The position numbers and the translations under genes are program-made. Of a DNA stretch of 64,000 bases, positions 6,500-46,698 are shown one piece after another (the first letter of the stretch is position 1; every line of letters begins with the position of its first letter). Below the pieces are notes generated by a model, which saw only the letters and a list, made by a program, of their open reading frames with translations, made no database searches and had not been told where the DNA came from. The DNA comes from Dermatophagoides farinae (Eukaryota > Arthropoda > Arachnida > Sarcoptiformes > Pyroglyphidae): positions 6,453,001 through 6,517,000 of the forward strand of contig NC_134679.1 of the NCBI RefSeq assembly GCF_024713945.1, given 5' to 3'.

Positions 6500-9400
6500 A
6501 TGATGGCCAAATCAATGAATAATGTGAAAGAAGAAGAATATGGTGATGAAGATGTGTTTCGAATGGGACCACATGAGCTTCGTGATTATCAGGTATAATG
6601 GAATGATTTTTTTTTTGCTGGTTTTAATTTTGTTCGATTTTTTTTCGCTGTATATAGAAATATCTATTTCTTGAAGCTAAAAAAGGAAACATTATAATAT
6701 GTTTACCAACAGGATCGGGTAAAACATTGATTGCATTATGTTTGATTCGTCATATGTTCAAACAAACAATCGGTCCATATCCATCGGAAGCTAAACGAAC
6801 ATTTTTTCTTGCACCAAATCGTGTTCTTATTACACAGCAACATAAAATAGCTGAAACATTATTACCAGGAAAAATTACATTGATTACTGGTGATCATAAT
6901 CCGGATAATTTTAGCTCAAATGATTGGGAAAAATGTTTGAAAGATTATCAAATATTTTTTCTGACACCAGCAATATTATATGATTTATTGGTTAAAGGAT
7001 ATATCAAAATCAATAATATTAATCTTATTGTATTCGATGAAATGCATTGGGCAACGAAAAAAAAGGGCCGTGATTCTGGCCATTTTTATAATCAAATTAT
7101 GAAATTATATGAAGCAAGTAATGTTGATGATGATAAAAAACCAAAAATTCTAGGCATGAGTGCCACATTAATACCACATAAACCGAAAGAAATTGAAACA
7201 TTCAATAATTCGTTAAAGAAAATCGAACAGCTATATCATTCACGTGTGATGACCAAAAATTTCGAACGTCACATAAATCATTGTCAAGAGATTGTAATTG
7301 TATATAAAAATGAAAACAATTTCAACATTGAAATTGATTTTGATTTTGATGAAATATGTGAAAAATATTTGAATCATTGTTTTTATCGAAATGCTGATCA
7401 GATGGCCATCAATGGTGATTTAAATAATGACGAATCAAGTAATGGCAGCAATGATGATTCAATGATTCAAGAAAAAGATTCACTAAAACAATTTCGATTG
7501 GCATTTAGAAAGATTGAAGAATATTTATATAAAACAATGGGACCATGGTTTGCCATTGAAGTGATCAAATTATATGATCAATCACTGCAATCAATGTCGT
7601 TTGAATTTACTGAACTAATACGAAGATTAATGAATCATATTCGTGTTTTGATTATCAAACGAATTGAAAAGAAATTTGCAATTGAAAATACTGATGATCT
7701 AAAATTATTAACCGACCATCGATTAGTATCGGATCGAATTCGGACACTTTTGATTTTATTCGATCAATTTCGAACGAAAACTAAACTAACCGGAATCATA
7801 TTCGTTAAGGAACGTACCACTGCAAATGTTCTGTATCGTTGGCTACTACAATTATCCAAAATCGAATGAAAATTATTCGTTTATTAAACCAGGATTTATT
7901 TGTGGTGCAATATCAAAAGATTTTATTAAATTTGATCAACCATTTCATTATAGTCAATATTTATCGTTGATGAAATCAAATTTAATTAATCTTATTGTTG
8001 CCACATCTGCCATTGAAGAAGGTTTCGATATTCCGATTTGTAATGTTGTGATTCGTTATGATGAACCACAAACATATCGTGCCTATTCACAATCAAGAGG
8101 ACGTGCACGTGATAAAAATTCTGCATATTTTCTTCTGATACCACAAGATTTGCGCACACAAATGATGAAAACGTTTGCTGATTTTCATGATATGGACAAT
8201 AAAACAAAGAAATTGAAGAATAATGTACAAGAATCTCTTGAAGAAGAAGAAGAAGATGATGAAATTGAATCTGATTGTTTGGATGTTTCCGACTCAATCA
8301 TTAAGAATATGGGAAATTTTAAAAATGGTCCATCAACATTATATCCATTAAATTCATTGAAATTAGTAAATGAATATCTAATGAAATTACCACGGGATTT
8401 ATTTAGCGATCATTTTCTGCCAATGTATCAATTCGTAAAAGATGATAATGATGATAATAATAATAATGATCAAATGAAAAAATATGCCTATGTTTTCGTA
8501 TTTCCAGTAAACAGTTCATTATCGGGTCAATTGATTCCTGGTGGATATTTTTGCACACAAAGAGCTGCAAAAATTCATTGTGCATATCGTACTTGTATCC
8601 ATTTGATACAACAAAATGAAATTGGTGACCGATTAAACATCATTGATCATAAATTTTTGATCAAAAAACATCATGAAGATCTCAATATTCGATTATCCGT
8701 ACAAGAATTACAAACAACTGATTATAAGAAAAAATTTTCCAATTTTTCCAATCAACTATTATTACCATCATCATCATCATCAGGTGAAACTGCAGATTTT
8801 TATCATCTTTATGCATTGGAATTTGATTTATTAACTGAAATAGATGATGAGACAGATTCCATTGGTCAAAATGAACAATATTTTAAACCGAAATTTGTTG
8901 GCACACATAATTCATCGGTTGGAATATTGATTAAAAATCAACAAAAACCATTCAAAGAGTTATGTTCATATTTCTTTTTCAATTTATTTCCAATCAAATT
9001 TCGTCTGATTCCTTGTGGAAAAGTTTCTATTATTGATACAAAATTTGAACTAATCAAACATTTTCATCAATATCATGCATTCGATTTAATATTGGAAAAA
9101 TTTCGTAGTGGACGTTTCGAAACCAGTGCTTTGAATACGGCCATTATGATTGTTTTGGTGAAACGAAAACCATATAGTAAACAATATATCATTGATTTTG
9201 ATCAAATGGAAAAATGTCGTCAATGGATAATGATGATGAAAAATTCTCATAAAGATCATCAGTCAATATCATCGGATTATCAACGAAATATAACTGTTTA
9301 TGATCCATCAACTTTGGATGGTGAATTTGAATTGTATGGTTATTTGTGTCATAAAAAAATTGAACTTTTGTTCAAGAAAACGGATGAAATTCGTTTACCA

Positions 9401-36971: not shown

Positions 36972-38566
36972 GGCTATTTTTTTTTCCTACACTGAAAATC
37001 AATGATCAGAACAGAATGACAATAAACAGCCAATCCAGTCAATAAATGCAGATTGATTGACGGCAAAAAAATTTTTGTTAAAAATAAACATCTCTGGTGA
37101 GATATATAAAAAAAATCATAAATCCCGTAAATTAAATTTTCAGCACACACATCTTATCACAGTGACTGATTATATCGAATTACGACCAAATGATGCAATT
37201 TTTACATTTTTTTTCCATTGTTTGACTGAATTTGTACTTTATTCATCATTTTGTCTACCAATCACATATACAAACGCTAATCGATGATATTAAATCGGAT
37301 ATAAAATTAATATATTGATTAATTAATCCATTTATTATCATAATCCACCAATAATCAGCGACAACAACAACAACAAAAATCAAAAAAAAAAGATTGTAAA
37401 ACATTGCTACACACACACACACCCACACATTGTCTATGAAAATATTCCATTTTTTTTGTTTTTGTTTTTATTTAACCAAAGGCGAAACAAACAACAACAA
37501 CAAAAAAAAAGAAATTCTATACTGCAGAATAATTGCAGCAGCAGCAGCAGTTGCCGCCGTTTGGAATAGGAATTTTTTTTTGCTACCATTTTATTTTTCT
37601 GGTTCCATGATTTCTGAAATTCTTTTATTATACTATTCTTACTACTGAGGTAATGTTTCATCATTATTTTGCTTCGTTTCTTTCTTTTCTTTTTTTTTTT
37701 GCTATTTTTAGACAATGAAAAAGAAATATTAATGCATCCATAATCATAATCAGTATAGAAATGGAGAGAAAAATAATAATATAAGAATATTTAAGTGGAG
37801 ACCGAATTTCTTTTCGTTAGTTCGTTCGTTTATTTATTTATTTATTTGCCCATGAATTCTTGCATTCTGTGTATTCTTTATATCTATGGATAGATTTCAT
37901 CATCATCGTCGTTGTTTCTGTTTTTTGTCATCTTTGATTTTCTTCTTATATATATACATATATAAGATTTATTCTTCATAACCAAAAAAAAAACTTTTTT
38001 TTTCATTTTTTTTCACGATTCAATAGACCAGAATACTTCTCTATCCGATAAGATCCGATTTTTAAATCCGCTTTATAAATTTGCCATCATGGTAATAATA
38101 AAATTCAAGAATCATAACAACCAAGCACCACCACTATAGTTTATTTGATGATAAAGTCTGTGTGTGTGTGTGTTTGATTATCGATTATTGCTGCTGCTAT
38201 TGCTGATTTGAAGGGTATTCAATTAGCTGCTTGTTTTTTTTTGGCGTTTTTAGTGTCTTGTCAGCAAACAACACACGCACACACATACACACACACATAC
38301 GCATATATAGAATGGTAAGCCACTAAGTCGTTATCATCGAATTGGTCTTCATCGTTTGTACCATCATCTGCCATCTCCGATATGTTGATTGTTGCTTTGT
38401 CACATAGGCAAGTGGCATGTTGTCCATTGCACGTGACACAACTAATGCTTGATCTACGCTCGTTGGTCTTGTGTGTCCAAATGTGATATTCCGAGCGTTG
38501 ATAATGTTTTGGATACTGTTGCAAATAGATAGATTATGCTTTATTCTCATTATTATTATTCAAATA
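36972..38566. other. Intergenic region left of the repeat cluster
   Basis: AT-rich with CAGCAGCAGCAG near 37537, TTTATTTATTTATTTATTT near 37826, a TG run at 38159-38174 and ACACACAC near 38270. A minus-strand frame at about 38300-38550 (containing SCVTCNGQHATCLCD or, one frame over, ARNITFGHTRPTSVDQALVV) looks partly protein-like and may be a decayed element piece. I cannot assign it. Confidence 0.4.
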
Positions 38567-38999
38567 CACAATAAGCAAAGGATATGGCTAAGTTCATCAA
38601 TGAAATTGGTTTCCATGTTTTTCCTACAAATTGCCTGCCTTATTTTTGTATATCAAAAATTCATCAGTTTTTTCTAATTTTAATTTCTACAAACGAACCA
38701 CACACTTGATTATTCATTTTTTTCTCTTTTAATTAATTGATACATTTGATTTTTATTTTTCTTCAAAAAAAAAAAAAAAAAAAATAATAAATAAAAAAAA
38801 ATAGAATCGTGTGTGTGGACAGGAAATTTGAAGAAGAAAGAACTCGATTGAAAAATAACGAAAAGAAAATTATTGAAAATAAAAAAAAAAGATAATTAAA
38901 ATGCAAATATTTTAAAAATTTAAATATAAAATACAAATATTTTTATAAATTGATTAGTTTTTAAAATTCAAAAAAATACAAATTGTGTCTCGCGTGTGT
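38567..38999 (+). repeat. Long inverted repeat A, left copy
   Basis: The sequence from CACAATAAGCAAAGGATATG through ACAAATTGTGTCTCGCGTGT is repeated inverted at 40806-41256. Conserved stretches include CATCAATGAAATTGGTTTCC, ACAAACGAACCACACA and GAAAGAACTCGATTGAAAAA. Differences are mainly in A/T tracts. Arms are about 430-450 bp. Confidence 0.85.
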
Positions 39000-39019
39000 G
39001 TAAATCAGAAAATCAATCA

Positions 39020-39490
39020 TGATATAATTAAATTATGCGTCAAATTATGTAACATTTTCAGTAAAAAATTCAAAGTAGAAGCATCATGCAAAGAATATCA
39101 TAAATTATTTGTACAAATTTGGAAAAATAATATGAACAAGATAAAGGGTCCTAAAATTATGATGTTTATATCAAAATGGTCATACACCATTACGGGAAAA
39201 ACGTTCATATCGAAAACCACAACAAAAATCTGTTCAAAGCTTTAAAAAAATTGATGACCAAAAAAATGGCTCAAGTATTGGATCAATTACAACTGACCGA
39301 TGACGACCAATCACAACAAAAAAAATAATAATTCCAGTAGAACCATCGAATGACAATGATGAAGATGATGAGAATAAGATCCTGAAATCAATACAAATGC
39401 AACGGAAGATTTCACTCGTATAACATTCAAACCGGATTTATCGGAATTTAAAATGGATCGTCTTGATAAAGATATTGTGTCATTATTATC
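39020..39490 (+). pseudogene. Topoisomerase II ATPase-domain fragments
   Basis: Two separated pieces match DNA topoisomerase II. At about 39030-39150 the translation reads KLCNIFSKKFKVEASCKEYH then KLFVQIWKNNM. At about 39400-39485 it reads TRITFKPDLSEFKMDRLDKD then IVSLL. In a normal TOP2 these lie about 15 residues apart in the GHKL ATPase domain; here about 250 unrelated bases separate them. After IVSLL the match stops where inverted repeat B begins. There is no start, no remaining gene body and stops in between, so this is a captured or broken gene fragment. The intact TOP2 gene must be elsewhere. Confidence 0.75.
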
Positions 39491-39492
39491 AA

Positions 39493-40105
39493 CCATCCAC
39501 TTGTTGACCATTGTTTCAGGTGCATGTTTCTTCGCTACTCGTATCAGTCCCAGCATGTGCAAGGTAATAAAATCACCTTGTTACATTAACTAGTTGTGAA
39601 CTTTATTTCTGAAAAATGAATGATAAATTTTAGATTATAATGGTTAAAAAAAGGATTACATACAATACGTTGGTATATCACAATCAATCACAATTTTACA
39701 AGGATCAAAAAACAAACGATAAAGAAAAACAAACACACACGTCATATACTACATTGAAAGTTCTAAAAACGTGCTCTCCACTATTCTGCCATGTTCACAT
39801 ATGACGTACCACTACATCACCTTATCACTGTGGAAAGATTTGAAAACAAGCCCATCGATTAATGCCAAGTTTTCTCCATTCTGGATTTTTGCTTGCTGTG
39901 GATTTTCTCTTCCCTGCCAGAAAGGAAGTCGATTAACCATAGAAAAGAAGCCTACGTAAAATTTATGCTTTTGCCTGTTAAAGTATTGTGTAAATAACGT
40001 CATATCTGAATATCAATTAGAATTGTACTCGAACAACGTGTTGTTGTTGTTTTTTTCGTTTTTTTCGAATTTCTTTTCGAACAAAAAGCATAATTTTATC
40101 CAATA
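39493..40105 (+). repeat. Long inverted repeat B, left copy
   Basis: About 610 bases, from TTGACCATTGTTTCAGGTGC to GAACAAAAAGCATAA, recur inverted at 42048-42665 with a few percent mismatch plus small indels. Both copies keep a minus/plus frame of about 60 codons (MTLFTQYFNRQKHKFYVGF...) with mainly conservative differences. Confidence 0.85.
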
Positions 40106-40554
40106 AACACGATCATAACCACATTATTCACGATCATATTTACTTGTTCGTCATTTTCACCATTTTTTTTGCAATTTTTTTTCATTTTTCATTTTTGTTT
40201 GAATTTTTAATTATTAATTTTATTTTATTTTTATATTCCACTAACTTCAAAGTACGTATCCGTTTCCGTAGCTGAAGAAAGCTATGCATAACAAGTATTT
40301 TTTTATTGAATTTTAAAAACTAATCAGTTAAATTTATTTTCTCTTTTATTTATACTCAAATGATATTTATTTTTATATTCAATTTAGAAAAATGGATGAC
40401 AACCAACGACATCAATTGATACAAATGCAACTACAACAATTACAACAAATAACACACACACACGAGACACAATTTGTATTTTTTTTTTTTTTTTTTTTGA
40501 ATTTTAAAAACTAATCAGTTAAATTTATTTTCTCTTTTATTTAACAATTACAAC
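40106..40554. repeat. AT-rich segment with internal direct repeats
   Basis: GAATTTTAAAAACTAATCAG followed by TTAAATTTATTTTCTCTTTT occurs at about 40309 and 40499. The block CACGAGACACAATTTGTATT followed by a T tract occurs at about 40460 and, as CGCGAGACACAATTTGTATT, again at 40813, where it forms the inner end of repeat A right. Local duplication of the inner end of repeat A is the simplest reading. Confidence 0.6.
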
Positions 40555-40800
40555 AATTACAAATACAACAATTACAACAATTATACAAATACAACAATTA
40601 CACAGTTATACAAATACAACAATTACGGTAACTACAAATACAACAATTACAGTAACTACAAATACAACAATTACAGTAACTACAAATACAACAATTACAG
40701 TAACTACAAATACAACAATTACAGTAACTACAAATACAACAATTACAGTAACTACAAATACAACAATTACAGTAACTACAAATACAACAATTACAACAAA
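40555..40800. repeat. 24-bp minisatellite
   Basis: The unit CAACAATTACAGTAACTACA plus AATA is repeated about seven times in 40615-40800, with variants (GGTAACT, missing AGTAACT) at the left edge. A multiple of three keeps frames open on both strands, which produces an apparent Cys-rich CNCCICSY repeat peptide that I regard as non-coding. Confidence 0.9.
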
Positions 40801-40805
40801 TAACA

Positions 40806-41256
40806 CACACACACGCGAGACACAATTTGTATTTTTTTTTTTTTGAATTTTAAAAACTAATCAATTTATAAAAATATTTGTATTTTATATTTCAATTTTT
40901 AAAATATTTGCATTTTAATTATTTTTTTTTTATTTTCAATAATTTTCTTTTCGTTATTTTTCAATCGAGTTCTTTCTTCTTCAAATTTCCTGTCCACACA
41001 CAGGAAAATAAAAATATAAGTCAAAGTTTTTAATGAAAAAAAAAATAATAAAAATCAAATGTATCATTTATTTATATGAGAAAAAAATGAGATTTTTTAA
41101 AAAATGAATTATCAAGGGAATGTGTGGTTCGTTTGTAGAAATTAAAAAAAAAAATTACTGAATCTTTGATAGACAAAAATAAAGCAGGCAATTTGTAGGA
41201 AAAACATGGAAACCAATTTCATTGATGAACTTATCCATATCCTTTCTTTATTGTGC
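40806..41256 (-). repeat. Long inverted repeat A, right copy
   Basis: Reverse complement of 38567-38999 with indels in A/T tracts. The inner end is ACACACACGCGAGACACAAT and the outer end is GGATAAGTTCATCAATGAAA read leftward from about 41241. Confidence 0.85.
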
Positions 41257-41374
41257 GAAAAATGGAATTTTATTATGGTATTATTAAATTTTTTGAAAAA
41301 TATGGATTATGATTAAAGAAAATCATTTTTAAGCATGTGTAATGAAATAACCATGCTAAATTCTTGGTTTAATT

Positions 41375-41640
41375 TTATTTTTTAATTTTTGCATGATTTT
41401 TTTTGTGTTTATATAAACCAGATTTGGATGTAAACTTTTTTCCACAACCATCCACGACACATATCAACTTTTTTTTTTGACGCTTGAAATATTCGTGATG
41501 AATATATTTACACATTTTTTTAAATTTGTCGTGACATTTTCTCCACTGACATTTTTGGCGGTTAATTAACAAACAAGGTACTCGAATCTTATTGATTCGT
41601 GCTCCGTACCCCACTTTATCATTCCAATAGAAGCGAGACT
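41375..41640 (-). pseudogene. C2H2 zinc-finger protein fragment
   Basis: The 79-codon minus-strand frame contains one canonical finger, CVVDGCGKKFTSKSGLYKHK then KNH (C-X4-C-X12-H-X3-H), preceded by a Cys/His-rich stretch (CQWRKCHDKFKKMCKYIHHE). It ends shortly after the finger with a Lys-rich tail. No promoter or further fingers are seen. It may be a truncated host gene, a transposon-encoded DNA-binding protein or a short real gene. Confidence 0.5.
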
Positions 41641-41830
41641 AAAAGTCTTTGAAAAGCGACGAATCTTTGTACCGAAAGGAAATCGGTGTTGCTCCTATCA
41701 CTTGATTGGCAAATGGCTGTACGAAGAACATGTTGGCAATATCGTTATCGTATCAGAACGATGTCAAATGGATGAAAACGAGATGAACATTTGGCCACAC
41801 AAATGGGACTAAGATGAATAAAATAAAGTA
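41641..41830 (+). pseudogene. Protein-like remnant, possibly transposon-derived
   Basis: One plus-strand frame reads IPIEARLKVFEKRRIFVPKG then NRCCSYHLIGKWLYEEHVGN and IVIVSERCQMDENEM. It begins directly beside the zinc-finger fragment on the other strand. The CC..H pattern after a basic stretch resembles N-terminal parts of some DNA-transposon proteins, but I cannot name the family. Confidence 0.35.
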
Positions 41831-42047
41831 AACAAGAACACGGAAGAAGTAATTTATTCATAAGATTTACAGTCAACTTTATATATTATTATTATACAAA
41901 TATAAAGTTCTTAATTATATTAATTATTTCACATTGTTGTTTCATTACTCAACAACATTCAACAATAACCACATGAACGAAATGCGGATTTAACAGTGGA
42001 TAGCCAGATTTTAATATTTGAGCCATTATATTTAACCTTAGAAAGGT

Positions 42048-42665
42048 AACCTACGTAAAATTTATGCTTTTTGTTCGAAAAGAAATTCGAAAAAAACGAA
42101 AAAAACAACAACACGTTGTTCGAGTACAATTATAATTGATATTCAGATATGACGTTATTTACACAATACTTTAACAGGCAAAAGCATAAATTTTACGTAG
42201 GCTTCCTTTCTATGGTTAATCGACTTCCTTTCTGGCAGGGAAGAGAAAATCCACAGCAAGCAAAAATCCAGCATGGAGAAAACGTGGCATTAAGCCATGG
42301 GCTTGTTTTCAAATCTTTCCACCATGCTCGATCAAGGACAGTGATAAGGTGATGTAGCGGTACGTCGTATGTGAACATGGCAGAATAGTGGAGAGCACGT
42401 TTTTAGAACTTTCAATGTAGAATGACGTGTGTGTTTGTTTTTCTTTATCGTTTGTTTTTTGATCCTTGTAAAATTGTGATTGATATACCAACGTATTGTA
42501 TGTAATCCTTTTTTTTAACCATTATATTCTAAAATTTATCATTCATTTTTCAGAAATAAAGTTCACAACTAGTTAATGTAACAAGGTGATTTTATTACCT
42601 TGCACATGCTGGGACTGATACGAGTAGCGAAACATGCACCTGAAACAATGGTCAATAAGCTGATG
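42048..42665 (-). repeat. Long inverted repeat B, right copy
   Basis: Reverse complement of 39493-40105. Within this copy CCTACGTAAAATTTATGCTT at 42050 is itself repeated inverted at about 42184-42203, so the repeat end can fold back. Beyond 42665 the sequence diverges from the left copy. Confidence 0.85.
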
Positions 42666-42973
42666 AGCTGGTTATCAACGTGAGGCGTGGTTTTAATCGA
42701 TCGGCAGTTGGACTGTCCAAGAAATCGTATAAATTTCCAAGACAACGACACATTCATCATCATATATCACTAGTCTTTAGAATTGTCGTCATCATTTTCA
42801 TTGTTTTCAACATTTTTTTTTACATTTAATTTTTTTTAAATTTTTTATTATTATCCAAATTACAAAAATGGATCCATTCCAACTAATACAACAACTGTTG
42901 ATGTTTTGTGATATAAATGACTTGATTATTTTATTGAATTATATTTTAATGAAGAACTTATAATCAATGGAAA
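42666..42973. other. Unassigned spacer right of repeat B
   Basis: A minus-strand frame runs from the spacer into repeat B (SLSWKFIRFLGQSNCRSIKT then TPHVDNQLISLLTIVSGACF) and ends at a possible GTAATA splice donor. In the left copy a different sequence (topoisomerase II-like) is joined to the same LLTIVSGACF exon-like piece. No gene is supported. Confidence 0.4.
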
Positions 42974-42975
42974 TA

Positions 42976-43174
42976 CACTCATACCCCGCTTAACGCTGCC
43001 CCGTTTAGCGCTGATTCGATATAACGCTGTATAATTACCCTACATTGCATTACATTGTTACATTGTATATGAAGGGTAAAAATGCATTATGTAAAGATAG
43101 CCCCGCTTAGCGCTGTTTCGCTTAACGCTCAGAATTTTTGGAACGTAACCCCCGCGTTAAGCGGGGTATTACTG
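42976..43174. mobile_element. 199-bp MITE, Tigger/pogo-like, flanked by TA
   Basis: The left end CACTCATACCCCGCTTAACG and the right end, read inverted, CAGTAATACCCCGCTTAACG are near-perfect terminal inverted repeats. TA dinucleotides lie outside both ends (42974-42975 and 43175-43176), the mariner/pogo target duplication. GCTTA(A/G)CGC motifs recur internally. There is no coding capacity. The CA..ATACC(C/T)CG terminus resembles Tigger elements. Confidence 0.75.
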
Positions 43175-43176
43175 TA

Positions 43177-43512
43177 CATGGATACAAAAAGAAAACGTTG
43201 AAAAAAATTACATGTGTGTAGTGATATCATTAATGACGTTATCACGCCACCACATGTGTTTATTTTTAGAGAACAAGAGACCCAAAATCTGCTCACTTGG
43301 GCAATTCATAAAAGACGTACCAACGTCAAACATTCTGAGAGAAAACCATTTACTCACTAACAACAACAACTACAACAACAGTTTTTAAACATAATACATG
43401 AACTTATACATCAACAACAATTACGAAGACAATTACGACGACAACGAACAGAAAAAGAATCAGAAGTTTCACATAATCTTTGAAACCGTTGATGGGTATC
43501 TTGGCAGTCCTG
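43177..43512. other. Spacer between MITE and minisatellite
   Basis: Ordinary AT-rich sequence with CAACAACAAC runs near 43362-43382. The last 13 bases (43500-43512, CTTGGCAGTCCTG) are already the tail of a 40-bp minisatellite unit. Confidence 0.5.
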
Positions 43513-45450
43513 TGGAAGTCCTGGTTCTCCAAAATTTCACCTCATGTGGAAGCCCCGGGAATCCTGTAAAAATCTTGGCAGTCCTGTGGAAGTCCTGGTT
43601 CTCCAAAATTTCACCTCATGTGGAAGTCCTGGTTCTCCAAAATTTCACCTCATGTGGAAGTCCTGGTTCTCCAAAATTTCACCTCATGTGGAAGCCCCGG
43701 GAATCCTGTAAAAATCTTGGCAGTCCTGTGGAAGTCCTGGTTCTCCAAAATTTCACCTCATGTGGAAGTCCTGGTTCTCCAAAATTTCACCTCATGTGGA
43801 AGCCCCGGGAATCCTGTAAAAATCTTGGCAGTCCTGTGGAAGTCCTGGTTCTCCAAAATTTCACCTCATGTGGAAGCCCCGGGAATCCTGTAAAAATCTT
43901 GGCAGTCCTGTGGAAGTCCTGGTTCTCCAAAATTTCACCTCATGTGGAAGTCCTGGTTCTCCAAAATTTCACCTCATGTGGAAGCCCCGGGAATCCTGTA
44001 AAAATCTTGGCAGTCCTGTGGAAGTCCTGGTTCTCCAAAATTTCACCTCATGTGGAAGTCCTGGTTCTCCAAAATTTCACCTCATGTGGAAGCCCCGGGA
44101 ATCCTGTAAAAATCTTGGCAGTCCTGTGGAAGTCCTGGTTCTCCAAAATTTCACCTCATGTGGAAGCCCCGGGAATCCTGTAAAAATCTTGGCAGTCCTG
44201 TGGAAGTCCTGGTTCTCCAAAATTTCACCTCATGTGGAAGCCCCGGGAATCCTGTAAAAATCTTGGCAGTCCTGTGGAAGTCCTGGTTCTCCAAAATTTC
44301 ACCTCATGTGGAAGTCCTGGTTCTCCAAAATTTCACCTCATGTGGAAGTCCTGGTTCTCCAAAATTTCACCTCATGTGGAAGCCCCGGGAATCCTGTAAA
44401 AATCTTGGCAGTCCTGTGGAAGTCCTGGTTCTCCAAAATTTCACCTCATGTGGAAGTCCTGGTTCTCCAAAATTTCACCTCATGTGGAAGTCCCGGGAAT
44501 CCTGTAAAAATCTTGGCAGTCCTGTGGAAGTCCTGGTTCTCCAAAATTTCACCTCATGTGGAAGTCCTGGTTCTCCAAAATTTCACCTCATGTGGAAGTC
44601 CTGGTTCTCCAAAATTTCACCTCATGTGGAAGTCCTGGTTCTCCAAAATTTCACCTCATGTGGAAGCCCCGGGAATCCTGTAAAAATCTTGGCAGTCCTG
44701 TGGAAGTCCTGGTTCTCCAAAATTTCACCTCATGTGGAAGTCCTGGTTCTCCAAAATTTCACCTCATGTGGAAGTCCTGGTTCTCCAAAATTTCACCTCA
44801 TGTGGAAGCCCCGGGAATCCTGTAAAAATCTTGGCAGTCCTGTGGAAGTCCTGGTTCTCCAAAATTTCACCTCATGTGGAAGTCCTGGTTCTCCAAAATT
44901 TCACCTCATGTGGAAGCCCCGGGAATCCTGTAAAAATCTTGGCAGTCCTGTGGAAGTCCTGGTTCTCCAAAATTTCACCTCATGTGGAAGTCCTGGTTCT
45001 CCAAAATTTCACCTCATGTGGAAGCCCCGGGAATCCTGTAAAAATCTTGGCAGTCCTGTGGAAGTCCTGGTTCTCCAAAATTTCACCTCATGTGGAAGCC
45101 CCGGGAATCCTGTAAAAATCTTGGCAGTCCTGTGGAAGTCCTGGTTCTCCAAAATTTCACCTCATGTGGAAGCCCCGGGAATCCTGTAAAAATCTTGGCA
45201 GTCCTGTGGAAGTCCTGGTTCTCCAAAATTTCACCTCATGTGGAAGTCCTGGTTCTCCAAAATTTCACCTCATGTGGAAGTCCTGGTTCTCCAAAATTTC
45301 ACCTCATGTGGAAGCCCCGGGAATCCTGTAAAAATCTTGGCAGTCCTGTGGAAGTCCTGGTTCTCCAAAATTTCACCTCATGTGGAAGTCCTGGTTCTCC
45401 AAAATTTCACCTCATGTGGAAGTCCTGGTTCTCCAAAATTTCACCTCATG
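43513..45450. repeat. Two-unit minisatellite array, 54 units, 1,938 bp
   Basis: The array parses without remainder into 37 copies of a 34-bp unit (a, starting TGGAAGTCCTGGTTCTCC, ending CACCTCATG) and 17 copies of a 40-bp unit (b, starting TGGAAGCCCCGGGAATCC, ending GGCAGTCCTG). 37x34 + 17x40 = 1,938, exactly the span. Copies are almost identical; the one b variant I noticed starts TGGAAGTCCCGGG at 44485. Runs of a between successive b units are 1,3,2,1,2,2,1,1,3,2,4,3,2,2,1,1,3,3. Both unit lengths are 1 mod 3, so reading frame rotates with every unit; b carries a TAA in one frame. The long forward open frames here are therefore composition by-products. GC content (about 44 and 52 percent) is well above the surroundings. 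Confidence 0.97.
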
Positions 45451-46698
45451 TGGAACTAATGATTGTGATGATAATATTTTCCATAAATTCCAAACATTTA
45501 AACATAACCGATAATTTAGTTATCGGATAATTGATAAACACAAACAACAAACTTTGAGGTGTGATGATCACAACTCATGGTCATCGTATTATCATCACAC
45601 ATCACCTCAATAATCCATGCATTCAATATCGTACTGTTGAAATTATACTGTATGTCTTTATCTTTACCTGATGACTATTTATTGTGAACATTAGTATTTC
45701 ATACTAAGTTTTGTTTTATTTTTTATATAAAAGAAAAATTCATATGTTACTAAATATTGGGAAGTTTATTTTCAATATTAAATTGATAGCAAATTTGGTA
45801 GCAAAGCGTGGTTGATTGTTTAATGATCACCACCCCCTCTGGCTCATCATTATATTTTTTAATTGTTTATTATTGAAAAATATTTTCTTATATCATTGTG
45901 TGATTATCATGGCTACACCATCGTCTACCAGCAGTAGTGACATGGATTTAAAAATTTTTCCATCATAATGAAAAGATTTATTGCACCAAGCTTGGTTGTA
46001 ATATAAATCGTTTTCATCATGACCAGGTATGAAAAAACACATCAAAAATATGTATGATGATGATTGAGCTACATTGCCCATTGTTGTTTGAAACCGGTAC
46101 TAACATTGAAATAAATCAAATGATTTTCTTTGATTCCATGCATGATGATGATGTTTACCTTTTTAGAATGTTGATTTTAAAGATTAATGAGAGAAAATCT
46201 GCTTTTTTGTTGGTACGGGAAAAAAAAGAAGAAAAGAAAATCGATTTTGAAATTTAATTTAAAAAATTTGAAATTTTTTTTTCTTTTTAAATTTTATTTT
46301 CAAATATATAAACAACGAAAAAAATATAATAACAACAACAACAACAACAAATATATTTTCAATTATTGATGATTGACGATATGAATTTGATTGAATGTTT
46401 ATCATCAATATATATGTAATAATGTATATATATGCATAGGGTATAAGTAGTAGTAGTAGTAATAGTGGTAGTAGTGGAATGTATAACAATTTGAACCAAA
46501 AAAAAAAAAAAAAAAATTTGAATTCAAATTCAAATCATTTCGAATGTTTTTTTTTGTTTTGTTTTTGTATATATTTAATTTAATTTCAATATAAGTTCGA
46601 TATGATTTTTTTTTGTACAGAATTTCATCAGAATCAGAATAATAAATAAATGAGAATTATTGATTAGTTTTTTTTGTTTTGTTTGTAGTGTGTTGTTT
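45451..46698. other. Intergenic region right of the minisatellite
   Basis: A hairpin-forming segment lies at 45554-45610 (TTGAGGT...GTGATGAT paired with ATCATCACACATCACCTCAA). Farther right are ACAACAACAAC (about 46335), AGTAGTAGTAGTAG (about 46446) and an A18 tract near 46498. A minus-strand peptide near 45895-46030 (NQAWCNKSFHYDGKIFKSMS) is not recognised. Confidence 0.5.

Follow-up and report, generated by a model that had tools for sequence, protein, structure and literature searches.

How do two pairs of long inverted repeats come to interlock, with pieces of several genes caught between their arms? The question is raised by positions 38567-42665 of a 64,000-nucleotide stretch of the mite Dermatophagoides farinae (assembly GCF_024713945.1, contig NC_134679.1; hereafter the window, C3:6453001-6517000 in the contig numbering used here). 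An earlier note on this DNA had offered two interpretations of the locus, gene-fragment capture by a long terminal-inverted-repeat (TIR) element of the Pack-TYPE kind or a break-repair patchwork, and had suggested that it might represent a new element family of mites. We read the structure from the assembled sequence alone, searched its main pieces across the whole genome (62.4 Mb, 22 contigs) and covered about 330 kb of that genome in detailed comparison. The best homologue of group 2 allergens in the genome resembles Der p 2 and Der f 2 (E 3e-30 and 1e-29), as would suit an astigmatid mite, although its alignment is far from identical, and the family has six weaker members. Neither pair forms the terminal repeats of a mobile element, and the structure is very probably a decayed patchwork within a C2H2 zinc-finger gene cluster, C3:6.41-6.81 Mb, that has been repeatedly rearranged by tandem and inverted segmental duplication; of the two interpretations, the break-repair patchwork stands and the long-TIR or Pack-TYPE one does not. 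A limited literature search, from which we draw no wider claim, found no description of the locus.

Two interleaved inverted pairs in a rearranged gene cluster

Pair A joins 38567-39001 to 40807-41255 (inverted, 82.7% identity over 462 columns) and pair B joins 39494-40097 to 42058-42665 (inverted, 92.6% over 622 columns including gaps). The two pairs score 917 and 482 bits, against at most 52.7 bits for any inverted match when 38001-43200 was dinucleotide-shuffled 100 times, which confirms that the interleaved inverted pairs are real and far beyond chance. Along the window the arms run A-left, B-left, A-right, B-right, as the earlier note had described with ends correct to within 10 bases. 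The arms are as follows.

38475..38764, plus strand: outer part of A-left, cluster-type A sequence by its site agreement with cluster copies and its divergence from A-right
38809..39001, plus strand: inner part of A-left, a close inverted copy of, or conversion by, A-right (2/191 substitutions against 40807-41005 reversed)
39494..40097, plus strand: B-left, presumed inverted copy of B-right, cut at both ends (14/590 against 42058-42665 reversed)
40807..41255, minus strand: A-right; nearest sequence found C3:6702032-6702400 (91.5%), A-left 82.7%
42058..42665, minus strand: B-right, presumed source arm, continuing unbroken into cluster 5' sequence

The surroundings are a local cluster of small C2H2 zinc-finger genes, which begin Q-rich, turn acidic and serine-rich in the middle and then carry the fingers; a finger search placed 10 of its 21 rows inside C3:6.41-6.81 Mb. 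We distrust the match of a Q-rich cluster protein to Mis12 (6.9e-6, 26.4 bits against a cut-off of 25.7). The cluster holds a palindrome, whose arms 6792474-6799376 and 6799740-6805928 match in four pieces at 90-99.9%, a tandem duplication of 9 kb (6416427-6425402 and 6426499-6435444, 99.4%) and a 100% identical inverted pair of at least 1152 bp, its members about 86 kb apart (C3:6700532-6701683 and 6788001-6789152, the latter near the palindrome). Inverted pairs of at least 200 bp lying no more than 10 kb apart in a contiguous 264 kb belong to cluster units (6413-6431 kb), to the structure described here or to satellite-like sequence at 6566-6578 kb. The palindrome as a whole occupies C3:6792474-6805928, with arms of about 6-7 kb and a centre of 363 bp.

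At least ten pieces, abruptly joined, make up the structure in the window, among them one filler from another chromosome. Its pieces are shared with neighbouring units, collinear with them and undispersed, as cluster duplication would leave them, with these exceptions: a 5' module found also at two places on C6, topoisomerase II (TOP2) and a DDE_Tnp_4 gene with full relatives on other contigs, and a private filler from C9.

Pair B duplicates DNA that already carried transposons

Full-length B accounts for 2 of the 41 rows of its genome search, both in the window, and the arms differ by 14 substitutions in 590 aligned bases together with 6 gaps. Each arm contains a solo long terminal repeat (LTR) and a miniature inverted-repeat transposable element (MITE), and B-right overlaps a 5' module of the cluster gene family.

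39579..39816, no strand: solo Pao-type LTR in B-left, TCACCT on either side
42353..42583, no strand: solo Pao-type LTR in B-right, AGGTGA on either side
39933..40097, no strand: piggyBac-like MITE in B-left, second end truncated, 96% to 42058-42219 reversed
42032..42219, no strand: piggyBac-like MITE in B-right, TTAA at both ends, terminal inverted repeats of about 40 bp
42604..42876, plus strand: 5' module of the cluster gene family, ending MDPFQLIQQ, with 15 further rows

The LTR has TG..CA ends and a target duplication of 6 bp, and Pao genes occur in a related element, C3:4046001-4052500, which carries two identical 250-bp LTRs and matches RVT_1 (1.5e-9), RVP (2.8e-4) and Peptidase_A17 (PF05380, 3e-20). 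At the homologous LTR-free site, C6:4374527-4374534, the flanks meet and AGGTGA is present once. The element at 42032-42219 has the TTAA target and TIRs of a piggyBac MITE and is too short to code; relatives of its end lie on nine contigs, piggyBac transposase frames of 527 and 562 aa lie on C2 and C5, and the end is one that we take to resemble the classic piggyBac end.

Because the same LTR, target duplication and MITE are present in both arms, the transposons predate the inverted copy; this shows that the LTR and MITE were inserted before B was duplicated in inverted orientation, and B, a private duplication, consists of two inverted copies of DNA that carried transposons. On one side B-left ends inside the MITE, and on the other both arms end in cluster 5' sequence. 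There B-right runs into the 5' module at 42604-42876, 13 of whose further rows lie in C3:6.41-6.81 Mb (one being B-left itself) and two on C6, but B-left halts abruptly at the TOP2 fragment, at 39491; we therefore infer that B-right was the source of B-left.

Pair A is a local repeat with a mosaic left arm

A genome-wide search with A-left returned at least 38 rows, at least 13 of them longer than 190 bp (two being the window's own), and among those listed the long matches all lie in C3:6414124-6802554; the remaining 25 listed are of at most 92 bp each, 14 of them on an A-rich tract, and all these counts are lower bounds. A as a mobile element was rejected on this confinement of its long matches, at least 13, to one 0.4-Mb stretch. 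The earlier note had taken single-copy arms as a finding that would count against it, and neither pair is single-copy, A being multi-copy but local and B two-copy.

The pair is inverted, as had been claimed, but it is not homogeneous: only 38809-39001 and 40807-41005 are closely similar, and 38567-38764 is more diverged. Over this outer part A-left differs from A-right by 22 substitutions in 194 sites, against 2 in 191 over the inner part (Fisher p=2e-5), so that the inner part is a close inverted copy or a conversion tract. Informative sites change affinity in the same way, since all five within 38575-38764 match other cluster copies rather than A-right, and from 38779 onward 28 of 31 match A-right, one the cluster and two neither; the switch coincides with the A-rich tract at 38765-38801. 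A-left is thus a mosaic in which the inner part lies beside older paralogous sequence. The subtype to which that inner part belongs is shared by A-left, A-right and, as far as about 38943, the copy at C3:6702032, which also has in common with A-right an insertion of about 17 bases. We set aside a single simple inverted duplication as the origin of A, given the uneven divergence along its arms.

A 478-aa open frame adjoins one A copy, at C3:6720459-6721892, and presumably encodes a Copia-type polymerase.

A topoisomerase II fragment holds a filler from another chromosome

The topoisomerase II fragment that had been noticed between the arms was borne out, with matches at 39039-39161 (E 4.6e-10) and, with one stop, at 39375-39491 (E 1.5e-11); a Pfam scan of a 26-aa TOP2 piece found no family. 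The two parts are separated by sequence from C9.

39037..39157, plus strand: TOP2 exon fragment, left part; 86.8% to C7:2580793-2580913, 87.3% to cluster TOP2 copies
39158..39377, plus strand: C9 filler inside the TOP2 fragment; C9:1760122-1760438 in three pieces, 77-92%
39378..39491, plus strand: TOP2 exon fragment, right part, cut at the B-left junction; 87.7% to C7:2580903-2581016, 83.3% to cluster copies

The filler, of about 220 bases, comes from the long open frame of an unnamed C9 gene, in whose protein a Pfam scan found no family, and it is absent from all three intact TOP2 copies of the cluster. About 11 bases of TOP2 sequence are repeated, with substitutions, at both of its joins, and no poly(A) tract was found at either end. 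Retrocopying of TOP2 was considered and rejected, as the alignment of the cluster copies with C7 continues without a break across a presumed intron.

The cluster also contains three TOP2 open frames identical over 1002 bases (C3:6417829-6418830, 6427871-6428872 and 6725139-6726140), in which TOP2 ATPase-region exon sequence stands behind the 5' module of the zinc-finger family. They align to C7 through the presumed intron and then jump about 3.9 kb to a later part, with nonsynonymous and synonymous divergences from the C7 gene of dN 0.12 and dS 0.31, and may represent a young chimeric gene. TOP2 paralogues in the genome are suggested by other topoisomerase II-like frames, at 33-77% identity (C7:2580597, C2:506798, C2:1612505, C6:1131363, C14:401044, C4:3748973 and C3:6579460), of which two are long, at 1587 and 1312 aa.

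Further pieces of the patchwork and their neighbours

The other pieces that we could follow are listed here.

38317..38475, plus strand: fragment from beside a retroelement-type aspartyl-protease open reading frame in another unit; 92.6% to C3:6422251-6422412
40107..40461, plus strand: 5' module and start (MDDNQRHQ...) of a cluster-family gene; 40107-40212 76% to C3:6795862-6795968, 40251-40461 79% to C3:6695846-6696071
40543..40795, no strand: 24-bp tandem array, 10.4 copies
41382..41552, minus strand: C2H2 finger exon fragment; 84% to C3:6696658-6696822, 6426367-6426530 and 6805280-6805444
41553..41685, minus strand: piece of the finger's own cluster unit, fused to the finger exon; 41553-41636 95% to C3:6693965-6694048, 41654-41685 97% to C3:6693939-6693970
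41621..41785, plus strand: residues 160-214 of a DDE_Tnp_4-domain gene; 61.8% to the C1 frame

Collinearity with other units runs through both flanks of the structure. On the left, 38317-39491 follows the arrangement at C3:6422412-6418393, where a protease-side fragment precedes two A copies, then a 5' module and then TOP2, but lacks the module and one of the A copies; the open reading frame neighbouring C3:6422251-6422412 matches PF13650 at 7.8e-6, over the cut-off, and PF13975 at 3.8e-6, just under it. On the right, the two pieces of 41382-41685 are collinear with C3:6693939-6696822 but without the roughly 2.6 kb that separate them there. The C2H2 finger fragment that the earlier note had recognised matches PF00096 over 41375-41638 of the minus strand (E 3.3e-4, 21.4 bits), below the Pfam cut-off of 25.2.

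What had been called an unidentified CC..H peptide is indeed present and can now be assigned, at 41621..41785, to a gene family with a DDE_Tnp_4 domain in its C1 and C10 members, although Pfam scans of the 80-aa and 68-aa peptides themselves found no family. Six further rows at 42-60%, on C1, C4 (two), C8 and C10 (two), lie in frames of 279-791 aa, and PF13359 was matched in both frames scanned, C1:3959416-3960999 (2e-21) and C10:1252121-1253722 (6.7e-10). Four other cluster units hold pieces of residues 291-378 of this gene, near C3:6414.7, 6693.5, 6797.2 and 6801.9 kb, so that the relic is to be counted among the cluster's components. Other frames of the family are at C10:1249778-1251400, C8:3218831 and C4:655837, and the family is possibly domesticated or recently mobile.

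Beyond the structure, 42974-43177 (about 200 bp) has ATACCCCGCTTAACGC common to both ends in inverted orientation and is an element that we take to be pogo/Tigger-like. It is followed at 43511-45455 by a G+C-rich tandem array of about 27 copies of 74 bp, with longer periods of 108, 142 and 290 bp. Elsewhere in the cluster, very long frames of CUB-like repeats, presumably cubilin-like, occupy C3:6433185-6443982, partly inside the 9-kb tandem duplication.

Discussion

The reading that we consider very probable, a patchwork decaying within a rearranging cluster, would require the following steps. Local segmental duplication and deletion would have brought the cluster pieces together, and B-left would have been made from B-right by templated inverted repair, for which break-induced or microhomology-type template switching and fold-back are candidate routes; in this repair B-left would have become joined to the truncated TOP2 fragment on one side, with its MITE cut short on the other. 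A-right would have served as template for the inner part of A-left, by copying or by conversion. The two pairs would interleave because, independently of B, many local copies of A in either orientation already existed.

Several observations weigh against this account. No convincing source was found for 41256-41381 and 41786-42031, where there are short matches only, the best of 73 bp on C10. Closer donors than those named could lie elsewhere in the cluster, for example at 6637-6691 or 6727-6788 kb, and the structure is that of the assembly. Of the 28 A-right-like sites, many fall past about 38866, where other cluster copies differ in sequence, so that these sites mark a shared subtype as much as a recent copy, the figure of 2/191 being independent of them. 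Given its flanking repeat, the C9 filler is less readily explained by simple template switching than by an insertion at a staggered break or of the transposition type. The joins do not reveal the repair pathway, their microhomologies being short and in part blurred. Finally, the 5-base repeat TTATC lies near both ends of B-left alone; it is uncalibrated at that length, a 6-base match with equal slack arising by chance in 3.2% of random pairs.

That a long-TIR transposon, Pack-TYPE or resembling Foldback and Galileo, captured host gene fragments here is highly improbable, even though long inverted arms do surround fragments of several genes and piggyBac and DDE_Tnp_4 genes are present in the genome. 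On the defining features given in the part of PMC8903248 drawn on here, the window shares with Pack-TYPE transposons the host gene fragments between inverted sequences, but we found no element ends, the cluster A sequence continuing to the left of its arm, no target duplication and no dispersed copies. Target duplications of 4-15 bp (exact, or with one mismatch from 8 bp upward, allowing 3 bases of slack) were absent at A..A, B..B, A-left..B-right and 38475..41255. Nor does a new mite element family find support, as no second locus with the composite was found, the long A matches belonging to one cluster and B occurring twice only. Besides, the two pairs interleave, the B arms hold older nested insertions and end inside one of them, and, the C9 filler excepted, the enclosed fragments have counterparts in cluster units without such arms. 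Foldback and Galileo elements, which are marked by relatives of the P-type transposase and by arms with internal repeats, have long inverted arms too, but the arms here are undispersed and are not element termini, and these elements were set aside since dispersal and target duplication had failed. An assembly artefact is also unlikely, if somewhat less so: cluster copies at 99.4-100% are hard to assemble and the structure is known from the assembly alone, but the arms are not near-identical (14/590 and 6 gaps in B, 22/194 in outer A), and several independent errors within 4 kb, as well as the filler in the TOP2 fragment, would be required.

A more serious alternative concerns how many events there were. 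One replication event with several template switches, of the kind of microhomology-mediated break-induced replication, could have made the inner part of A-left and B-left together, jumping between a cluster unit, A-right, the TOP2 fragment and B-right. We regard this as possible while, on balance, doubting it. Both copies lie to the left of their presumed sources, in the same direction, the joins are abrupt, and their divergences (2/191 and 14/590) show no detectable difference (p=0.38), but with 2 and 14 differences this comparison has low power. Moreover, gene conversion between existing inverted A copies explains inner A equally well, since the copy at C3:6702032 shows that the A subtype already existed elsewhere. 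A bolder extension, which we think rather improbable, would make the cluster a self-sustaining hotspot of inverted duplication that produces chimeric genes by spreading the 5' module before zinc fingers and TOP2 ATPase exons, and the window patchwork would be one product that failed, the result of a single repair event with several template switches.

Among known systems, vertebrate KRAB zinc-finger clusters are a case of local segmental duplication in multigene clusters. The mite cluster resembles them in its tandem and inverted copies, pseudogene fragments and apparent conversion within one cluster; unlike theirs, its genes are small and Q-rich with few C2H2 fingers, and its 5' module also stands before TOP2 exons. 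Templated insertions and inverted duplications made in break repair, as described in the part of PMC5110952 consulted here, share with the window the inverted copies, the distant coding filler and the abrupt joins, but the window arms are about 600 bp long and nearly 2 kb apart. The C9 filler fits neither class of insertion in that part of the source fully: its flanking repeat of about 11 bases exceeds the 5-bp minimum for the target duplication of class 1, but it lacks the poly(A) tract. The remainder of the structure is very probably what ordinary segmental duplication and decay leave in a local multigene cluster.

What looks like a novel long-inverted-repeat element can thus be an accumulation of ordinary events, and nested transposons with their target duplications can put such events in order, here the LTR and MITE first and the inverted copy second. 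With its palindrome, its near-identical tandem copies and its TOP2 frames behind a zinc-finger 5' module, the cluster would be well suited to following the assembly and loss of new genes in a small animal genome.

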